Assembly: GCF_003260015.1 (NCBI RefSeq)
Contig: NZ_QCXS01000004.1
Span: 124,001 to 188,000, forward strand
Origin: Nakamurella deserti
GTDB taxonomy: Bacteria > Actinomycetota > Actinomycetes > Mycobacteriales > Nakamurellaceae
DNA length: 64,000 nt
Direction of reading: 5' to 3'
Below, in pieces: positions 45,339-51,774 of the stretch. Positions within the stretch are counted from its first letter, which is position 1, and the number at the start of each line of letters is the position of its first letter. The notes below the pieces were generated by a model, which was given only the letters and a program-made list of their open reading frames with translations, searched no databases and had not been told where the DNA came from. The translations under genes were made by a program, and so were the position numbers.

Positions 45339-45989
45339 GTGAAGAGATGGGCTATCCGACGGAACCTGACCGCCGGGCTGTGGCGGGTGTTCGGCTGGCG
45401 TTTCGTCGGTCAGCCCACCGAGAGCCGGGCGGGCATCCTGATCGGCGCACCGCACACGTCCAACTGGGACTACGTCGCGATGCTGGCCATCTGCTGGCGG
45501 TCCGGCATCGCACCGAAGTTCCTCGGCAAGAAGGAACTGTTCAGCGGGCCCATGGGCGTCCTGGCCCGCCTCAGCGGCGGCATCCCGGTGGACCGCGACA
45601 ATCCGCACGCCCTGGTCTCCGAACTCGTCGAGCTGGTGCGCCACGGCGACGAGTTCTTCCTGGTGATCGCACCCGAGGGCACCCGGGCGAAGAAGGACTA
45701 CTGGAAGTCCGGCTTCTACCGGCTCGCCGAGGACACCGGCCTGCCCGTGACGCTCGGCTTCATCGACCGGGCGACGAAGACGGCGGGCTGGGGCCCGACC
45801 CTGCACGTCACCGGCGACGTCGCCGCCGACATGCAGGTGCTGCGCGACTTCTACCGCGACAAGGGTGGAGTGCACCCGGCGAACAGGACCGAGCCCCGGT
45901 TCCGGGTCGAACGACCCACCCGGGCCGCCCTGGCCCGCGAGAAGGCCGCCGGCGACGTCCCGCCGACCGGACCCGGGCCGGTCGTCTGA
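45339..45989 (+). CDS. PlsC-like acyltransferase
   Basis: 216 residues. The acyltransferase block HTSNWDY is a variant of the family's HxxxxD, with His and Asp five apart. KFLGKKELFSGPMG is the acceptor region, GIPVDRDNP the second block, and FFLVIAPEGTRAKK the third (EGTR). These match the short lysophospholipid-acyltransferase-type proteins of actinobacteria, which are likely peripheral to the membrane. GTG 45339 starts in a basic segment. It is divergent from the transporter operon. Lipid substrate unknown. Confidence 0.88.
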   Translation: MKRWAIRRNLTAGLWRVFGWRFVGQPTESRAGILIGAPHTSNWDYVAMLAICWRSGIAPKFLGKKELFSGPMGVLARLSGGIPVDRDNPHALVSELVELVRHGDEFFLVIAPEGTRAKKDYWKSGFYRLAEDTGLPVTLGFIDRATKTAGWGPTLHVTGDVAADMQVLRDFYRDKGGVHPANRTEPRFRVERPTRAALAREKAAGDVPPTGPGPVV

Positions 45990-45992
45990 TCC

Positions 45993-46004
45993 GGTACTAG
46001 TACC
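45993..46004 (+). promoter_or_regulatory. GGTACTAGTACC palindrome, site A
   Basis: A perfect 12-base palindrome located 50 bases before the start of the exported repeat protein gene. The extended context CCGGTACTAGTACC-R-AGGTC is repeated at 48864-48883, upstream of the secreted protein gene after the two-component genes. It is a plausible binding site of the NarL-type regulator encoded between them. Confidence 0.65.
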
Positions 46005-46054
46005 AAGGTCGGATACCGCACTGCACACCTTCCGGGGGACAAAGGAGGTCGACA

Positions 46055-46795
46055 GTGAGGAGAACGGACATGAAGCGGATCGCCATCCTGGGCGGCCTGA
46101 TCGTCGCGGCGTGTGTGCCGGCGATCGCGGGTCTCGTCGGCAACGCGTCCTTCGGTGACAGCGTCCCGGTGCGGGTGCCGACGTCGGCGGTGCTGACCAC
46201 CGGGCCGCTCGACGACCGGGGCGGTCTCACCCTCCTGGACGACGACGGCCCTGCGACCGGCGGCACGCGGACCACGGGCGGGAGCACCGGCACCCCCGGC
46301 ACGTCGGTGGTGTCGTCGACCGACCCGGCTCCGGGGACGACCGGTGCCACACCCACCACCGGCGACACCGCCACCAGCACGTCGTCGTCCCGGACGTCGA
46401 ACGACCCGGTCGGCCCGGTCGGCCCGGTCACCAGCTCGCCCGGCGGCCCGGCGGGAAGCGGATCGAGCACCGCGGCGCCGACCGCGCCCACCACTCCGAC
46501 CGCGCCGACCGCGCCGACATCCGACGACCACGGCGGCGACCGCACCACCGAGCCGGCCGACGACCACGGCGGCGACCGCACCACCGAGCCGGCCGACGAC
46601 CACGGCGGCGACCGCACCACCGAGCCGGCCGACGACCACGGCGGCGACCGCACCACCGCACCGGCCGACGACCACGGCGGCGACCGCGACCGCGGTGGGG
46701 ACGACGGCGGCGATGACGGCACGGGCTCCCACGGCGGCGACGGCGGCACGGGATCCGGGCACGGCGGAGGGGAGGACGGCTCCGGCCGTCGATGA
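46055..46795 (+). CDS. Exported acidic repeat protein, probable lipoprotein
   Basis: 246 residues. The N-terminus KRIAILGGLIVAAC has a short hydrophobic core and a possible lipobox VAAC. The rest is low-complexity Thr/Ser/Gly/Pro, then four copies of the 12-residue unit DDHGGDRTTEPA, and an Asp/Gly/His-rich end. The Asp and His could bind cations. The GTG at 46055 lies five bases after AAAGGAGGT; an ATG five codons later is an alternative. It overlaps the sensor kinase gene (ATGA), so it may be an accessory to signal sensing. Confidence 0.7.
   Translation: MRRTDMKRIAILGGLIVAACVPAIAGLVGNASFGDSVPVRVPTSAVLTTGPLDDRGGLTLLDDDGPATGGTRTTGGSTGTPGTSVVSSTDPAPGTTGATPTTGDTATSTSSSRTSNDPVGPVGPVTSSPGGPAGSGSSTAAPTAPTTPTAPTAPTSDDHGGDRTTEPADDHGGDRTTEPADDHGGDRTTEPADDHGGDRTTAPADDHGGDRDRGGDDGGDDGTGSHGGDGGTGSGHGGGEDGSGRR
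46523..46690. repeat. 36-bp coding tandem repeat
   Basis: Four nearly perfect 36-base units from 46523 to 46666, then a partial fifth to 46690. They encode DDHGGDRTTEPA. The near-identity at all codon positions shows recent expansion and implies that copy number may vary. Confidence 0.92.
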
Positions 46796-48156
46796 ACGTC
46801 ACCGACCGCGACGGCCCGGCCTGGGTCGTTCTCGCCTCCGGCGCACCGGTCGCTCCCGAGCGGCCGGTGCGCCGCCGGCGTGTCTTCCTCCAGGTCATCC
46901 TGGGTGCCCTGGTGGTGATCGTCGCGGTCGCGATCGCCGGTGTGGTCGCGGCCCGGCGGCTCGCCGAGGCCGAGGCGGTGTCCGACGCGGCCGGGACCGC
47001 GGACCTGCTGGCCGAACTGCTGGTGCAACCCGCCCTGCGGGACGGGATCCTCGACGGTGACGCGGCCGCGGTGGACGCGGTGGACGCCGTCGTCCGTGCG
47101 CACGTCCTGGCCGGGCCGCCGGTGGTGCGGGTCAAGCTGTGGGATCCGGCGGGCCGGATCCTGTACTCGGACGAACCGCGGCTGATCGGCGCCACCTTCG
47201 CCCTGGGCGAGGACGAGCGGGAGGTCTTCGCCGACCCCCGGACCCGGGCCGAGGTGTCCGACCTCGACGCCCCCGAGAACGTCTACGAACGCGGCCGCGG
47301 ACAACTGCTCGAGACCTACCGCCCGGTGTGGGCGCCGTCCGGGCAGCCGTTGCTGTTCGAGGCGTACTTCCGCTACGACGAGGTCACCGCCCGCAGCGGA
47401 CAGCTGTTCCGCGGCTTCGCCGGCATCACCCTGAGCAGCCTGCTGCTGTTGGTGGTGCTGTTGCTCCCGGTGCTCTGGCGCCTGCTGGACCGCCTGAGAC
47501 TGGCGCAGGCCCAACGCGAGTCGTTGCTGCAGCGCGCCGTGGACGCCTCCGCGGACGAACGCCGCCGGATCGCCGGGACCCTGCACGACGGTGTCGTGCA
47601 GGACCTGGTGGCCACGTCGTTCGCCGTCGCCGGCGCGGCCGAGCAGGCGGCCACCGACGGCCGCACGGGACCGGCCGCCGAGCTGCGCCGGGCCGCCGCC
47701 ACGGTCCGGACCAGCATCGGCGGGCTGCGCTCGCTGCTCGTCGACATCTACCCGCCGGGGCTCGCCGACGGAGGGCTGGCCGCGGCGCTGGACGACCTGG
47801 CGGCCGGCCTGCGGAGCCGGGACATCCGCGTCGACGTCGAGGTCGACGCCGTCGATCTCGACCCCGACCGGCAGCGGCTCGCCTACCGGGTGGCCCGGGA
47901 ATGCCTGGGCAATGTCTCCCGGCACTCCGGCGCCACCACGGCCGTCGTCCGACTGACCCGGCAGGACGGCGCCGATGTCCTCGAGATCGCCGACGACGGG
48001 GTCGGTTTCGATGTGGAGGCGGCGCTGGCCCGGCCCGCCGAGGGTCATTTCGGGCTGCGGGTGCTCGGCGACGTCGCCGGCGACGCGGGCGCCGGACTGC
48101 GGGTGGCGAGCGCCCCGGGGGCCGGTACCCGTTGGCAGCTACGGTTCCCGGTATGA
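46792..48156 (+). CDS. NarL-type sensor histidine kinase (HisKA_3)
   Basis: 454 residues. Two membrane helices (~31-52 and ~210-230) enclose a ~155-residue extracytosolic sensor domain with VVRVKLWDPAGRILYSDEPR, resembling a PDC/CHASE-type fold. The phosphoacceptor region is ERRRIAGTLHDGVVQDL (His265), and the ATPase part has ECLGNVSRHSGAT, ADDGVGFD and GHFGLRVLGD. It overlaps both its upstream exported protein and its downstream regulator. The signal is probably outside the cell. Confidence 0.93.
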   Translation: MNVTDRDGPAWVVLASGAPVAPERPVRRRRVFLQVILGALVVIVAVAIAGVVAARRLAEAEAVSDAAGTADLLAELLVQPALRDGILDGDAAAVDAVDAVVRAHVLAGPPVVRVKLWDPAGRILYSDEPRLIGATFALGEDEREVFADPRTRAEVSDLDAPENVYERGRGQLLETYRPVWAPSGQPLLFEAYFRYDEVTARSGQLFRGFAGITLSSLLLLVVLLLPVLWRLLDRLRLAQAQRESLLQRAVDASADERRRIAGTLHDGVVQDLVATSFAVAGAAEQAATDGRTGPAAELRRAAATVRTSIGGLRSLLVDIYPPGLADGGLAAALDDLAAGLRSRDIRVDVEVDAVDLDPDRQRLAYRVARECLGNVSRHSGATTAVVRLTRQDGADVLEIADDGVGFDVEAALARPAEGHFGLRVLGDVAGDAGAGLRVASAPGAGTRWQLRFPV

Positions 48157-48797
48157 CGACGCGCCCGACACCGACCCGGGTGCTGCTGGTGGACGACCAC
48201 CCGCTGGTCCGGGCCGGGCTGGCCGCGTTGATCTCCGGCGCGCCCGACCTCGAGGTCGTCGCCGAGGCGCCCGGCGGTGAGTCGGCCGCGGACGTCGCCG
48301 CCGAGCACCGGCCCGACGTCGTGCTGATGGACCTGTCGATGCCCGGCGTCGACGGCGTCGAGGCCACCCGGCGGGTCCTGGCGGTCCGCCCGGCGACCCG
48401 GGTCGTCGTGCTCACCTCGTTCTCCGACACCGCCCGCGTCACCGAGGCCCTGCGGGCGGGCGCGATCGGCTACCTGCTCAAGGACAGCGATCCGGCGCAG
48501 CTGCTGTCGGCCATCCGGTCGGCCGCCCGCGGTCACGCGCCCCTGGATCCGCGCATCGCCACGGCGCTGCTGCCGACCGCGGCGGTGCCGCTGAGCGAAC
48601 AGCTGAGCGCCCGGGAGCGGCAGGTACTGGTCCTGCTCACCCGGGGCCTGTCCAACCGGCAGATCGGGCGCGACCTCGGGATCGCCGAGCGGACGGTGAA
48701 GGTCCATGTGGGGAGCCTGTTCCGGCGGCTCGGGGTGGCCGACCGGACGAGCGCGGCGATGTGGGCCCGGGACCACCTGCCGGACGCCCGGCGCTGA
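48153..48797 (+). CDS. NarL/FixJ-family response regulator
   Basis: 214 residues. Receiver domain with LLVDDHP, phospho-Asp60 (VVLMDLSMPG) and Lys in GYLLKDSD. The LuxR-type helix-turn-helix is LSARERQVLVLLTRGLSNRQ followed by RTVKVHVGSLFRRLGV. The start overlaps the kinase stop (ATGA). NarL-type proteins bind short inverted repeats as dimers, and two copies of GGTACTAGTACC flank this operon. That makes a self-contained regulon likely. Confidence 0.94.
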   Translation: MTTRPTPTRVLLVDDHPLVRAGLAALISGAPDLEVVAEAPGGESAADVAAEHRPDVVLMDLSMPGVDGVEATRRVLAVRPATRVVVLTSFSDTARVTEALRAGAIGYLLKDSDPAQLLSAIRSAARGHAPLDPRIATALLPTAAVPLSEQLSARERQVLVLLTRGLSNRQIGRDLGIAERTVKVHVGSLFRRLGVADRTSAAMWARDHLPDARR

Positions 48798-48831
48798 CGT
48801 CGGCGCCGGACCCCGCGGCCGCGTGACCGGA

Positions 48832-48893
48832 ACCGGTACCGGCACCGAGGTTTCATGGCGGGACCGGTACTAGTACCGAGGTCTCATGGCGGG
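48832..48893 (+). promoter_or_regulatory. Tandem 31-bp repeat with GGTACTAGTACC, site B
   Basis: Two direct 31-base repeats, 48832-48862 and 48863-48893, agree at 27 positions. The right copy contains the perfect palindrome GGTACTAGTACC (48866-48877); the left has the degraded GGTACCGGCACC. They lie 85-146 bases before the start of the next secreted-protein gene and 35 bases after the response-regulator stop. Confidence 0.7.
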
Positions 48894-48977
48894 ACCGACC
48901 TGCGTCGCCCCACAGTCGACGTACCGCCAGATGCGGTCCCCTGCGGCCGCGGCCGCCCGACTCCTCCAGGAGACCCC

Positions 48978-49832
48978 ATGTCCCGATCCCGTTCGTTGCT
49001 CCGGGCCGCCCGGGTGACGCTGCTCGTCGGCGCCGTCGCCGCCACCACGCTGGTCACCGGCGGCACCGCCCAGGCCTCCGGAAAGACCTCGGCGGGCGGT
49101 GATTTCGCGGTCACGCTGAACGGCACCGTGTACAACCCGGCGGCCGGCCAGTCGGTGTCGGTGAAGTCCGTGACGCCGCGGGGCACCATCGCCGTCCGCG
49201 GCCGCAACGTGGGCTTCGACCTCGATCCGGCGACGCTGGGCGCCTACGCCTACACCCTCACCGGTGCACCCGACAGCCAGCGCATGGTCACGGCACCGAC
49301 CGTGGTCTTCGCGTCCAAGGTGCCGACGCTGACCGCCGCACAGCGGTCGGGAGTGTCGATCAGGGAACTGCAGGTCAGGGACGACACCCTGGTCCTGATC
49401 TTCCAGACGGCCGGCGGCAAGCTCAAGATCCAGGCCAAGGACGGTGCGCAGGGCGGCATCTTCCAGATGGAGCCCGAGTTCGCCGCGCCGGTCGAGATCG
49501 TGCACACCCTCGGCGCCGGGCTCTTCTACTTCGTCAACCCGTTCACCGGCAAGGTCAACTTCGGCGACGGTGTGGACGCCGTCGCCGGATCCCACCAGAT
49601 GCTGCTGGGCAAGGACAGCCCGCAGGTGGCGACGAAGACGTTCCAGGACGCCACGGTCACCCGCTGGTCGGTCGCCTCCGGCGGCCGGATGGGCGGGGTG
49701 CTCGGCGAGGACGCCGTGGAACTCTCGGCCGGCGCGACGAACTGCACCAGCCAGTGCCAGGCCCGCAACCAGATCCGCGGCTCGCTGCCGGTGCCGCCGA
49801 ACCCGACCGCGCCGACGCCGATCGGCGGCTGA
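48978..49832 (+). CDS. Secreted protein of unknown function
   Basis: 284 residues. A Sec signal peptide (SRSRSLLRAARVTLLVGAVA..., cleavage near AQASG, residue ~34) precedes a beta-rich mature part that I do not recognise: DFAVTLNGTVYNPAAGQSVS, VSIRELQVRDDTLVLIFQT, and GLFYFVNPFTGKVNFGDGVD. Two close Cys (NCTSQCQ) near the C-terminus may pair. The ATG at 48978 follows AGGAG. Its promoter region holds the GGTACTAGTACC site, so it is probably the output gene of the two-component system. Confidence 0.75.
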   Translation: MSRSRSLLRAARVTLLVGAVAATTLVTGGTAQASGKTSAGGDFAVTLNGTVYNPAAGQSVSVKSVTPRGTIAVRGRNVGFDLDPATLGAYAYTLTGAPDSQRMVTAPTVVFASKVPTLTAAQRSGVSIRELQVRDDTLVLIFQTAGGKLKIQAKDGAQGGIFQMEPEFAAPVEIVHTLGAGLFYFVNPFTGKVNFGDGVDAVAGSHQMLLGKDSPQVATKTFQDATVTRWSVASGGRMGGVLGEDAVELSAGATNCTSQCQARNQIRGSLPVPPNPTAPTPIGG

Positions 49833-49870
49833 TCGGCGGCCGATCGGCGGCTGATCGGCGGCTGATCGGC
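49821..49870. repeat. 11-bp tandem repeat across a stop codon
   Basis: ATCGGCGGCTG is repeated four times (49821-49864, one copy with a single change), followed by a partial copy. The first unit includes the stop of the secreted-protein gene. Because 11 is not a multiple of three, copy-number change would leave the stop intact but vary the spacer. Confidence 0.85.
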
Positions 49871-49962
49871 ATCGCGCCGGACCGGTGGTCCCCACCCGCC
49901 GCCGGTGTGCTTGCATCGTCGGGGCTCCGCGACCTCGCGGAGTCCCGTGGTGAGGAGCGCAC

Positions 49963-50949
49963 ATGTCGCAGCGGCAGGCAGCGCCGAGGGCGGGCACCGG
50001 CGACGGACCGCGCCTGCGGCTGGGCAGCTGGCCCACCCCGCTGGAGGCCGCTCCGCGACTCGCCGCAGCCCTCGGCCTGGGCGCGGACGACCTGTGGATC
50101 AAGCGCGACGACCTGATCGGGCTCGGCGGCGGTGGCAACAAGGTCCGCAAACTCGAGTACACCCTCGGGGGCGCGGTGGCCGACGGCGCCCGCACCGTGG
50201 TCACCAGCGGCGCACCCCAGAGCAACCACGCCCGGCTGACCGCGGCGGCCGCGGCCCGGCAGGGCCTGACCGCGGTGCTGGTCCTCGAGGGTGACGCCCC
50301 GACCGACGTCCGCGGGAACCTGCTGCTCGACGGCCTTCTCGGGGCGGAACTGGTCTGGGCGGGGCACGTCGGGCCCGCTGCCCTCGCCGCCCGCGTCGAG
50401 CAGGAGGCGACCGTGCGCACCGCCGCCGGCCGGCCCGCCGCGGTGATCCCCTTCGGCGGCTCGAGCGTCCTGGGCGCCCACGGCTACGTCCGGGCGGGTG
50501 AGGAACTCCTGGACCAGGCGCCGGAGCTCACCACGGTGGTGACCGCGGTCGGGTCGGGCGCCACCATGGCCGGTCTGGTGCACGCCCTCGGCGCGGGGCG
50601 CGTTCTCGGGGTCGACACCGGCGCGGTGTCCGACGGCCCGGACCGGGTCGCCGGCCTGGTCGCCGGGCTCTCGGGCACCCCGGCCGACCCCGAGGCCCTC
50701 CGCTGGGACGGTGACCAGGTGGGGGCCGGCTACGGAACCCTCACCGCGGCCGTGCGTTCCGCCCTCCGCCTGCTGGCCCGCACCGAGGGCGTGGTGCTGG
50801 ACCCGGTGTACACCGGGCGGGCCGCCGCCGGTCTGGTCGACGCCGTCCGGACCGGCGCCGTCAGCCCCGGCGAGCGCACGGTCCTGCTGCACAGCGGTGG
50901 TCTGCCCGGGCTCTTCGGGCATCCGGACGCGGCGACGCTGACCGGCTGA
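49963..50949 (+). CDS. D-cysteine desulfhydrase/ACC deaminase-family PLP enzyme
   Basis: 328 residues, fold type II. The cofactor Lys is in GGGGNKVRKLEY, with DLWIKRDDL just before it. SGAPQSNHARLTAAAA forms the phosphate/substrate region, and AVGSGATMAGLVHAL and LLHSGGLPGLFGH are C-terminal motifs. The layout fits D-cysteine desulfhydrase (pyruvate, H2S and ammonia from D-cysteine) and its ACC deaminase relatives; sequence alone leans to the first. It has its own start at ATG 49963. No partner gene is evident. Confidence 0.87.
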   Translation: MSQRQAAPRAGTGDGPRLRLGSWPTPLEAAPRLAAALGLGADDLWIKRDDLIGLGGGGNKVRKLEYTLGGAVADGARTVVTSGAPQSNHARLTAAAAARQGLTAVLVLEGDAPTDVRGNLLLDGLLGAELVWAGHVGPAALAARVEQEATVRTAAGRPAAVIPFGGSSVLGAHGYVRAGEELLDQAPELTTVVTAVGSGATMAGLVHALGAGRVLGVDTGAVSDGPDRVAGLVAGLSGTPADPEALRWDGDQVGAGYGTLTAAVRSALRLLARTEGVVLDPVYTGRAAAGLVDAVRTGAVSPGERTVLLHSGGLPGLFGHPDAATLTG

Positions 50950-50952
50950 CCG

Positions 50953-51015
50953 CCCTACCGTCCCTACCGTCCCTACCGCGCCTCCTGCGCCTCCTGCGCC
51001 TCCTGCGCCTCCTGC
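50953..51015. repeat. Two adjacent 9-bp tandem repeats between convergent genes
   Basis: CCCTACCGT occurs twice from 50953 plus a near copy, followed by GCCTCCTGC four times (50980-51015). They fill the 69-base gap between the PLP enzyme and the SDR gene, which converge. Low-complexity spacer, possibly variable in length. Confidence 0.8.
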
Positions 51016-51018
51016 GCC

Positions 51019-51774
51019 CTACTGCGCGGTGTAGCCGCCGTCGACCAGGTGGTAGCTGCCGGTGATGAACGACGCCGCGTCGCTGGCCAGGAAGGCCACC
51101 AGGGCGGCCACCTCGTCCGGGCGGCCCATCCGGCCGAGCGCGTGCTTGCCGTCCAGATGGGTGCGGGTCGGTTCGTCGAGGCTGCGCTCGACGAGGGGCG
51201 TGGCGATGAAGCCGGGGCCCACGCTGACCACCCGGACGCCGTGCGCCGCGTACTCCAGGGCGGCGTTCCTGGTCAGTCCGATCAGTCCGTGCTTGCTGGT
51301 GACGTAGGCCGACGAGTTCGCGAACCCGACGCTGCCCAGGATCGACGCCATGTTCACGATAGCCCCACCTCCGGCGGCGATCATCGCCGGGATCTGCGCC
51401 CGCATGCCCAGGAACACGGCGTCGAGGTTGACGTCGAGGACCTTGCGCCAGTCCGCGACCGACAGGTCGGCGACCGGGGCGGCGGCCCCACCGATGCCGG
51501 CGTTGTTCACCGCGATCCGCAGTGGGCCCAGACGACCGGCTGCGGCGACCATCGCGGTCACGTCGGCCTCGTCGGTGACGTCGCCGCCGAGGGTCTCGGC
51601 GGTCCCGCCGGCTGCGGTGATCCGCTCGGTGACCTGCCGGGCGCCCGCTTCGTCACGGTCCACCACCAGTACCGCCGCGCCGGACGCGGCCAGTACCTCC
51701 GCCACCGCGGCGCCGATCCCGGAGCCACCGCCGGTCACGATCGCCGATCGTCCCGCCACGTCGTAGGTCGCCAT
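51019..51774 (-). CDS. Short-chain dehydrogenase/reductase (FabG-like)
   Basis: 251 residues, classical SDR. Cofactor motif [22 protein letters not shown], catalytic Ser in [20 protein letters not shown] with the Tyr-Lys pair, and the end [20 protein letters not shown] after the second strand has the Asp that favours NAD+. Substrates may be hydroxy-acids, sugars or cyclic alcohols; none is implied by neighbours. ATG 51774. Divergent from the glycosyltransferase gene. Confidence 0.92.

Follow-up and report, generated by a model that had tools for sequence, protein, structure and literature searches.

The window analysed here is a 64,000-nucleotide stretch of Nakamurella deserti DNA (contig NZ_QCXS01000004.1, positions 124,001 to 188,000), and its subject is a small locus in which two copies of one perfect palindrome, GGTACTAGTACC, mark the genes of a two-component system (TCS). 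The first copy precedes genes for an exported protein (REP), a sensor histidine kinase (HK), and a response regulator (RR), while the second precedes a gene for another secreted protein (OUT), so that the NarL-type RR lies between the two putative operators. The features of the locus are as follows.

45339-45989: acyltransferase gene (PF01553), directly 5' of operator 1
45993-46004, forward strand: putative operator 1, palindrome GGTACTAGTACC, 5' of REP-HK-RR
46070-46795, forward strand: REP, exported protein; N-terminus MKR..GLxGNxSFxxxVPVRVP, then a disordered D/G/T-rich tail with DDHGG repeats
46521-46687, forward strand: 36-bp tandem repeat within REP, 4.6 copies, encoding DDHGGDRTTEPA
46792-48156, forward strand: HK, sensor histidine kinase; two membrane helices, HisKA_3, HATPase_c
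48153-48797, forward strand: RR, NarL/LuxR-type response regulator; Response_reg, GerE
48828-48897, forward strand: 31-bp tandem duplication of the putative promoter module 5' of OUT
48835-48846, forward strand: degenerate copy GGTACCGGCACC, a putative third operator within the left-hand 31-bp repeat unit
48866-48877, forward strand: putative operator 2, palindrome GGTACTAGTACC, 5' of OUT
48978-49832, forward strand: OUT, secreted protein; predicted beta-supersandwich, conserved Cys pair near the C-terminus

REP overlaps HK, and HK overlaps RR, by four bases. The start of REP was placed at the ATG at 46070, as orthologues begin with MKR, a GTG at 46055 being the longer option; OUT starts at the ATG at 48978, with AGGAG 5' of it. 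Domain matches exceeded their cut-offs for both signalling proteins (RR: Response_reg, 98.4 bits, and GerE, 70.2 bits; HK: HisKA_3, 39.1 bits, and HATPase_c, 29.4 bits), and the closest solved structures were VraR for RR and VraS for HK. Fold tests assigned a Cache (PDC)-like fold to the extracytoplasmic part of HK (approximately 53-208) and agree with the galactose-mutarotase-like beta-supersandwich predicted for OUT. Neither REP nor OUT matched a Pfam or NCBIfam family at E≤0.001, and relaxing the Pfam threshold to E 10 yielded one match for OUT (E 0.11) and zero for REP. A protein search found 1090 homologues of OUT at E≤0.001, the named rows of which read hypothetical protein. The corresponding search with REP gave a single match, because its tail is of low complexity and the search needs exact words; this family was instead traced through synteny.

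The two palindromes share their flanks, CC on the 5' side and AAGGTC (operator 1) or GAGGTC (operator 2) on the 3' side. Operator 1 starts three bases past the stop codon of the acyltransferase gene, and operator 2 forms part of the right-hand unit of the 31-bp tandem duplication, which the original prediction had overlooked. In the window they are the sole matches to GGTACTAGTACC with up to two mismatches, a number reached in 5 of 100 shuffled windows (mean 0.26 matches). The whole genome (4,625,266 bases, six contigs) contains only these two at zero or one mismatch, compared with 17 matches to a reversed-pattern control. The core GTAC-N2-GTAC by itself was rejected as an operator: its 53 genomic copies are uninformative because they are fewer than those of its reversed control (65). 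An original prediction, made from the sequence alone, had placed a compact NarL-type two-component regulon here, marked by the palindrome and having undescribed accessory and output proteins. Its palindrome positions and flanks and its gene layout are confirmed, the many unrelated genomic copies that would have spoken against it are missing from this genome, and the regulon itself is supported, REP and OUT lacking a family at the threshold given above; the envelope signal that it also proposed is no more than plausible.

We compared 17 Nakamurella genomes. Six of them (G000, G012, G006, G015, G013, and G002) carry an HK orthologue with E below 1e-90, the next full-length kinase matches in the genus having 31-36% identity and E values of 1.7e-55 and weaker. 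Exact copies of GGTACTAGTACC are found in the same six genomes and no other, in nine sites that all lie within approximately 1 kb of HK or RR; the reversed control gave six sites across five genomes. The odds of such a coincidence come to 1/12376 on the assumption of independent genomes, an assumption that does not hold for relatives. The order site-REP-HK-RR-site-OUT is present in G000, G012, and G013, while G006 has site-REP-HK-RR and no OUT match. In G015, REP-HK-RR is divergent from OUT2-OUT (OUT2 is a third secreted family, described below), with one exact site on the REP side and a degenerate copy directed towards OUT2. In G002, the order is HK-RR-site-REP-like, with a degenerate site, GGTACTACGACC, 5' of HK; the HK gene of this genome (L067, 7964) contains an in-frame TAG and is possibly decaying or mis-sequenced. 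The operon-leading site is thus seen also in G012, G015, G013, and G006, the distance from palindrome end to start codon being 44 bases in G015 and 63-80 in the other Nakamurella. The comparison of gene order in relatives that had been proposed with the original prediction hence gives a variable order in which the site remains 5' of a secreted gene. G014 matches only the final 32 residues of OUT. OUT2 is present in 1 of the 17 genomes, N. silvestris, between the site and OUT, and has no match in the genome of the window. We did not retain the paralogous Nakamurella kinases (six loci, 31-36% identity) as members of the same system, as their loci contain no GGTAC-N2-GTACC; the simple GC-by-codon-position gene caller often misses REP, so that its absence from these loci is not established.

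Beyond the genus, a named collection was scanned with an HK alignment, and the best 80 of 427 loci encoding a relative, chosen by protein only, were examined. The exact palindrome occurs at 26 of these 80 loci, and a copy with at most one mismatch at 46. For 179 control palindromes of the same composition, sought in the same 0.81 Mb, the mean was 0.017 exact copies (maximum 1); 30 of these controls gave, at up to one mismatch, a mean of 0.67 loci (maximum 4). Whole genomes of 27 of the 80 organisms contain 22 exact copies distributed over 21 genomes, and 21 of the 22 lie at the HK locus. The remaining copy, in Cellulomonas humilata, is located away from the HK locus, beside a distant RR-like gene (31%). 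In 20 of the 21 TCS genomes that hold an exact copy it is the only one, and the reversed control yielded 15 scattered copies in the same 27 genomes. At the level of the order, HK (E≤1e-60) was detected in 38 of 397 genomes and 19 of 85 genera. A random class-wide sample of 394 genomes contains six, including that of the window, with a near full-length OUT, which adjoins HK in all six; two further genomes have only partial OUT matches of 36-56%. The arrangement recurs in several actinobacterial orders, more widely than the original prediction had foreseen, in numerous soil- and plant-associated organisms that are only distant relatives.

The 46 sites within one mismatch point mostly at genes for secreted proteins. 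Automatic labelling of the gene that follows gave REP for 23, REP with a divergent OUT for one, OUT for 16, and other for six; among these last, L116 leads to REP and L145 and L125 face OUT2, so that L131, L158, and L168 remain. OUT2, of about 130 aa, carries the pattern GTWKLKAKHDDGxIE...EVDTNRxGQxW, has 338 homologues at E≤0.001, and adjoins the kinase in 13 of the best 80 loci, as in these examples:

L025, 7857-8162: OUT2
L145, 3777-4169: OUT2
L118, 2041-2439: OUT2
L150, 4488-4880: OUT2

Overall, REP was counted at 27 of the 80 loci, OUT at 18, and OUT2 at 13, with at least one of the three at 53; a site by a looser definition is present at 50 loci, and site and secreted family together at 44. 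REP was recognised by its N-terminal pattern, which in one count or another missed L109, L115, L116, or L134, and the 27 REP loci leave out L109 and L134, where REP is shown, and L115, where it is labelled. Six of the 80 loci have fewer than 900 bases upstream and cannot be judged for upstream genes. Four gene orders keep the site 5' of a secreted gene: site-REP-HK-RR-site-OUT, HK-RR-site-OUT, site-OUT-HK-RR, and HK-RR-site-REP.

Alignment of the 46 sites on their better-scoring strand shows the palindrome to be the left-hand portion of a longer, directional element, GGTACTAGTACCAASGTCCGATGG. The RAGGTC that the original prediction had regarded as a flank is indeed present after both palindromes, but it belongs to the conserved element itself. 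In the window, the element has the following further features.

46005-46016, forward strand: directional downstream block AAGGTCGGATAC of operator 1, conserved at fixed spacing in other genomes
48878-48889, forward strand: directional downstream block GAGGTCTCATGG of operator 2
45998-46013, forward strand: operator 1, 16-bp 7-2-7 reading TAGTACC-AA-GGTCGGA, fitting T(X)4C(X)4G(X)4A; sole match in 45960-46069
48871-48886, forward strand: operator 2, 16-bp 7-2-7 reading TAGTACC-GA-GGTCTCA, fitting T(X)4C(X)4G(X)4A; sole match in 48800-48977

Across the 46 sites, the bases that follow GGTACTAGTACC are A41 A37 (C22/G21) G46 T41 C41 C36 G34 A39 T44 G30 G45. Scores on the strand used are 8-10 of 10 for 37 of the 46 sites, as opposed to 0-6 on the complementary strand; the choice of strand was itself based on this score. 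Conservation drops outside the element, leaving weak columns at 34-38 and 45-53 (39 sites scoring 7 or more) and, on the upstream side, a single weak column. Because sites picked by their palindrome are biased, we also anchored the alignment on columns 15-24 alone, which gave 82 hits in the 80 loci, chance hits included. T.G.ACC was in register (at least 4 of 5) in 38 of these, compared with 0-2 when the register was shifted (six shifts). GGTAC also stands at columns 1-5 in 34 of the 38. Seven of the 38 fall outside the 46 (L106, L110, L113, L131 at 4489, L154, L164, and L172), and in three of the seven, which carry GGTACTACGACC or GGTACTAAGACC, the middle of the palindrome is broken.

Columns 6-21 of the element form an imperfect 7-2-7 inverted repeat, TAGTACC-AA-GGTCCGA, with 2-6 of 7 pairs (mode 5) compared with 0-3 at shifted centres, and T6-C11-G16-A21 is present in 39 of the 46 sites, in agreement with T(X)4C(X)4G(X)4A, which PMC7191749 gives as the motif for LiaR. 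GGTACTAGTACC adds a third, overlapping half-site to this 7-2-7 site. The strict palindrome as sole binding site was kept as one reading only, both symmetries being present in the element. A LiaR-type half-site (columns 15-21) accounts for part of the block to the right of the palindrome, but not for columns 22 and 24 (T in 44 and G in 45 of the 46 sites) or for weak columns 45-53. A base other than T occupies column 9 in 13 of the 46 sites, and changes to one arm are the commoner kind. Among perfect CTAG-core palindromes in the HK loci, 36 of 39 are GGTNCTAGNACC, which is no proof of compensatory change because perfect palindromes were taken by construction and duplicate records (such as L150/L202 and L158/L207) are included. 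At loci with a GGTACTAGNACC site, the window included, 37 of 38 regulators have H[VLA]G in their recognition helix (exception L131), and where column 4 is G or C five of six have HLT (exception L130).

Taken together, these features make it likely that the locus is a closed NarL-type TCS, the regulator of which binds the element and activates both its own operon and the secreted outputs. The membrane kinase would read a signal through its extracytoplasmic Cache domain and phosphorylate the adjacent RR, which would bind three half-sites, GGTACTA / (TA)GTACC - AA - GGTCCGA, the palindrome consisting of the first and second of these and the LiaR-like 7-2-7 site of the second and third. Bound RR would then activate REP-HK-RR, giving positive feedback, and OUT as a second transcription unit, and the exported REP and OUT would function at the cell surface or signal back from it. 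What the sequence itself provides is the rarity of the site, its tie to kinase and regulator across orders, its place 5' of secreted genes, and its fixed geometry; binding, activation rather than repression, and a surface role of REP and OUT are the most likely interpretation of these. Envelope sensing is a plausible function, put forward with some reserve in view of the extracytoplasmic sensor, the exported products, the kinship to VraS/VraR, and the LiaR-type site. It is conceivable, though we doubt it, that the system is a class-wide and so far undescribed surface-sensing module with its own secreted partners as its entire regulon, REP being a third signalling component that modulates the kinase and OUT and OUT2 interchangeable carbohydrate-binding wall proteins. 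REP (acidic, histidine-bearing, and disordered) might in that case serve, for instance, as a ligand buffer that binds cations or wall polymers.

Several observations weigh against a closed, element-driven TCS. No site within one mismatch was found at 34 of the best 80 loci, and many HK relatives have a degenerate site or none recognisable. In the class sample, HK (E≤1e-70) occurs in 35 of 394 genomes and is accompanied by the exact palindrome only in the genome of the window. The exact 12-mer is present in 7 of the 394 (this genome included), with six sites in the other 393, one of which adjoins a distant HK (33%) and has a downstream block of similar type; the family of G680 has seven copies in 6 of 186 genomes, two of the seven beside OUT2 and HK-like genes. 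Exact copies in such unselected genomes mostly lie away from this TCS, so the word alone is not diagnostic, and it was rejected as a stand-alone marker, most of these copies being background. The LiaR motif is not a stringent one, the 64-kb window containing 175 matches, and 20 of the 46 sites retain 5 of 6 palindrome pairs, with one arm broken, so that recognition may not depend on the symmetry of the palindrome itself. The match of helix to site is confounded with phylogeny, has exceptions in L131 and L130, and was drawn from sites sought anywhere in the locus. Neither a sigma-70-like promoter pair nor a terminator was recognised in 45800-49990, and without the former the promoter position and the sign of control are unproved. 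Finally, G001 has OUT with neither a site nor such an HK.

In G001 (L026:6609-9499), the OUT orthologue is located directly 3' of genes for an OmpR-type regulator and a HisKA kinase, not a NarL-type pair; the output gene is coupled there to another TCS, with a change of regulator. In two loci that were not kinase-selected, L189 (G744) and L247 (G945), a variant block, GGACGATG, comes after an exact palindrome; one of the two palindromes lies beside a distant kinase (33%), and these loci may represent a sister regulon.

Three alternatives to activation by the linked regulator were considered. The first, which is improbable but survives best, is that RR binds the element as a repressor, so that the operon is autorepressed and OUT silenced until a signal arrives. 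The spacing to the start codon (44 bases in G015, 63-80 in other Nakamurella) would allow the palindrome to overlap a core promoter, and the missing sigma-70-like hexamers leave room for this; conversely, where regulators of the NarL/LiaR/VraR type control their own operons, they mostly activate them. It is very improbable that the element is recognised by a transcription factor or sigma factor encoded elsewhere, with the TCS as one target among others. The right-hand block varies no more than the palindrome does and might belong to a promoter, and genomes lacking this TCS hold exact copies; however, among Nakamurella genomes the presence of the site follows the TCS, a second exact copy is missing from 20 of the 21 TCS genomes that have one, and the block can be taken for the other half of a LiaR-type site. 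The least credible alternative is that the identical sites are recent copies on a horizontally moved cassette with undiverged promoter DNA, for although transfer of OUT is plausible because it is 72-78% identical to its named Microbacteriaceae matches and patchy (8 of 394 class genomes, two partial), HK and RR are only 51-68% and 54-70% identical at the 26 exact-site loci and the DNA outside the element is unconserved (39 of the 46 sites).

Two further groups of short repeats were observed downstream. In the window at 49820-49870, the 11-mer GATCGGCGGCT occurs in 4.6 tandem copies, spanning the OUT stop codon and the sequence just 3' of it, and at 50949-51027 the 9-mer tandem repeats ACCGTCCCT and GCGCCTCCT occupy a short gap between a gene for a PLP-dependent enzyme and a convergent SDR gene.

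A full-text literature search for GGTACTAGTACC, GTACTAGTAC, and TGAGTACNNGTACTCA returned matches that were unrelated by title, one of them on a Burkholderia TCS. No description of the system was found in the open literature, judged mostly on titles and abstracts, and most subscription papers lay outside the search, so that novelty is unproved. If activation by the linked regulator is correct, the locus offers a regulator-operator pair with targets readable from sequence in Nakamurella, Cellulomonas, Nocardioides, Aeromicrobium, Frigoribacterium, Curtobacterium, Herbiconiux, and others, and a shared regulatory context for three secreted families without a family name (REP, OUT, and OUT2). One 26-bp element in a reporter would reveal the signal, and natural site variants beside differing recognition helices provide a case for studying the specificity of NarL-type regulators. 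Were the class-wide module real, it would be a self-contained extracellular feedback loop, an actinobacterial answer to LiaFSR.

Among known systems, the original prediction had invoked MacR of Streptomyces. MacR reportedly binds TGAGTACNNGTACTCA, and the parallel extends no further than the GTAC-N2-GTAC core, which both sites here contain; the outer arms differ, and the element fits the LiaR motif instead. In the available text of PMC9739842, MacRS of Streptomyces coelicolor is a NarL-type TCS controlling membrane proteins and lipoproteins, with multiple direct targets of MacR, as opposed to one or two exact sites per genome here. No Streptomyces record title occurs among the best 80 HK loci, which only hints that HK and RR are not orthologues of MacRS (SCO2121/SCO2120). 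The top NCBIfam match of HK, to the MctS / MctR models, reaches 118.8 bits, far under the curated cut-off of 700, and covers only the kinase core (213-453), leaving the sensor part unmatched. AbrB1/B2 of S. coelicolor is described as an actinobacterial homologue of VraR/S-LiaR/S, and the available text of PMC7581861 mentions neither accessory REP/OUT proteins nor a palindrome.

The LiaFSR and VraTSR envelope-stress systems of the Bacillota agree with the system here in their nearest solved structures (VraR, VraS) and in their site motif, which, loose as it is, is found at 45998 and 48871 and nowhere else in either leader. They differ in having a LiaF/VraT membrane component; here the third gene is REP, there is no LiaF/VraT homologue, and the system is for that reason not a strict member. 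HK also scores 63.8 bits against an NCBIfam LiaS cut-off of 450 and has a large extracytoplasmic Cache domain, whereas LiaS is said to have a short sensor loop. Further, the third half-site GGTACTA overlaps the 7-2-7 site and the outputs are REP, OUT, and OUT2, unlike in LiaFSR or VraTSR. The kinship to LiaR/VraR is nevertheless better founded than the MacR parallel, and within the broad NarL-type kind of TCS the system appears to work most like LiaSR/VraSR.

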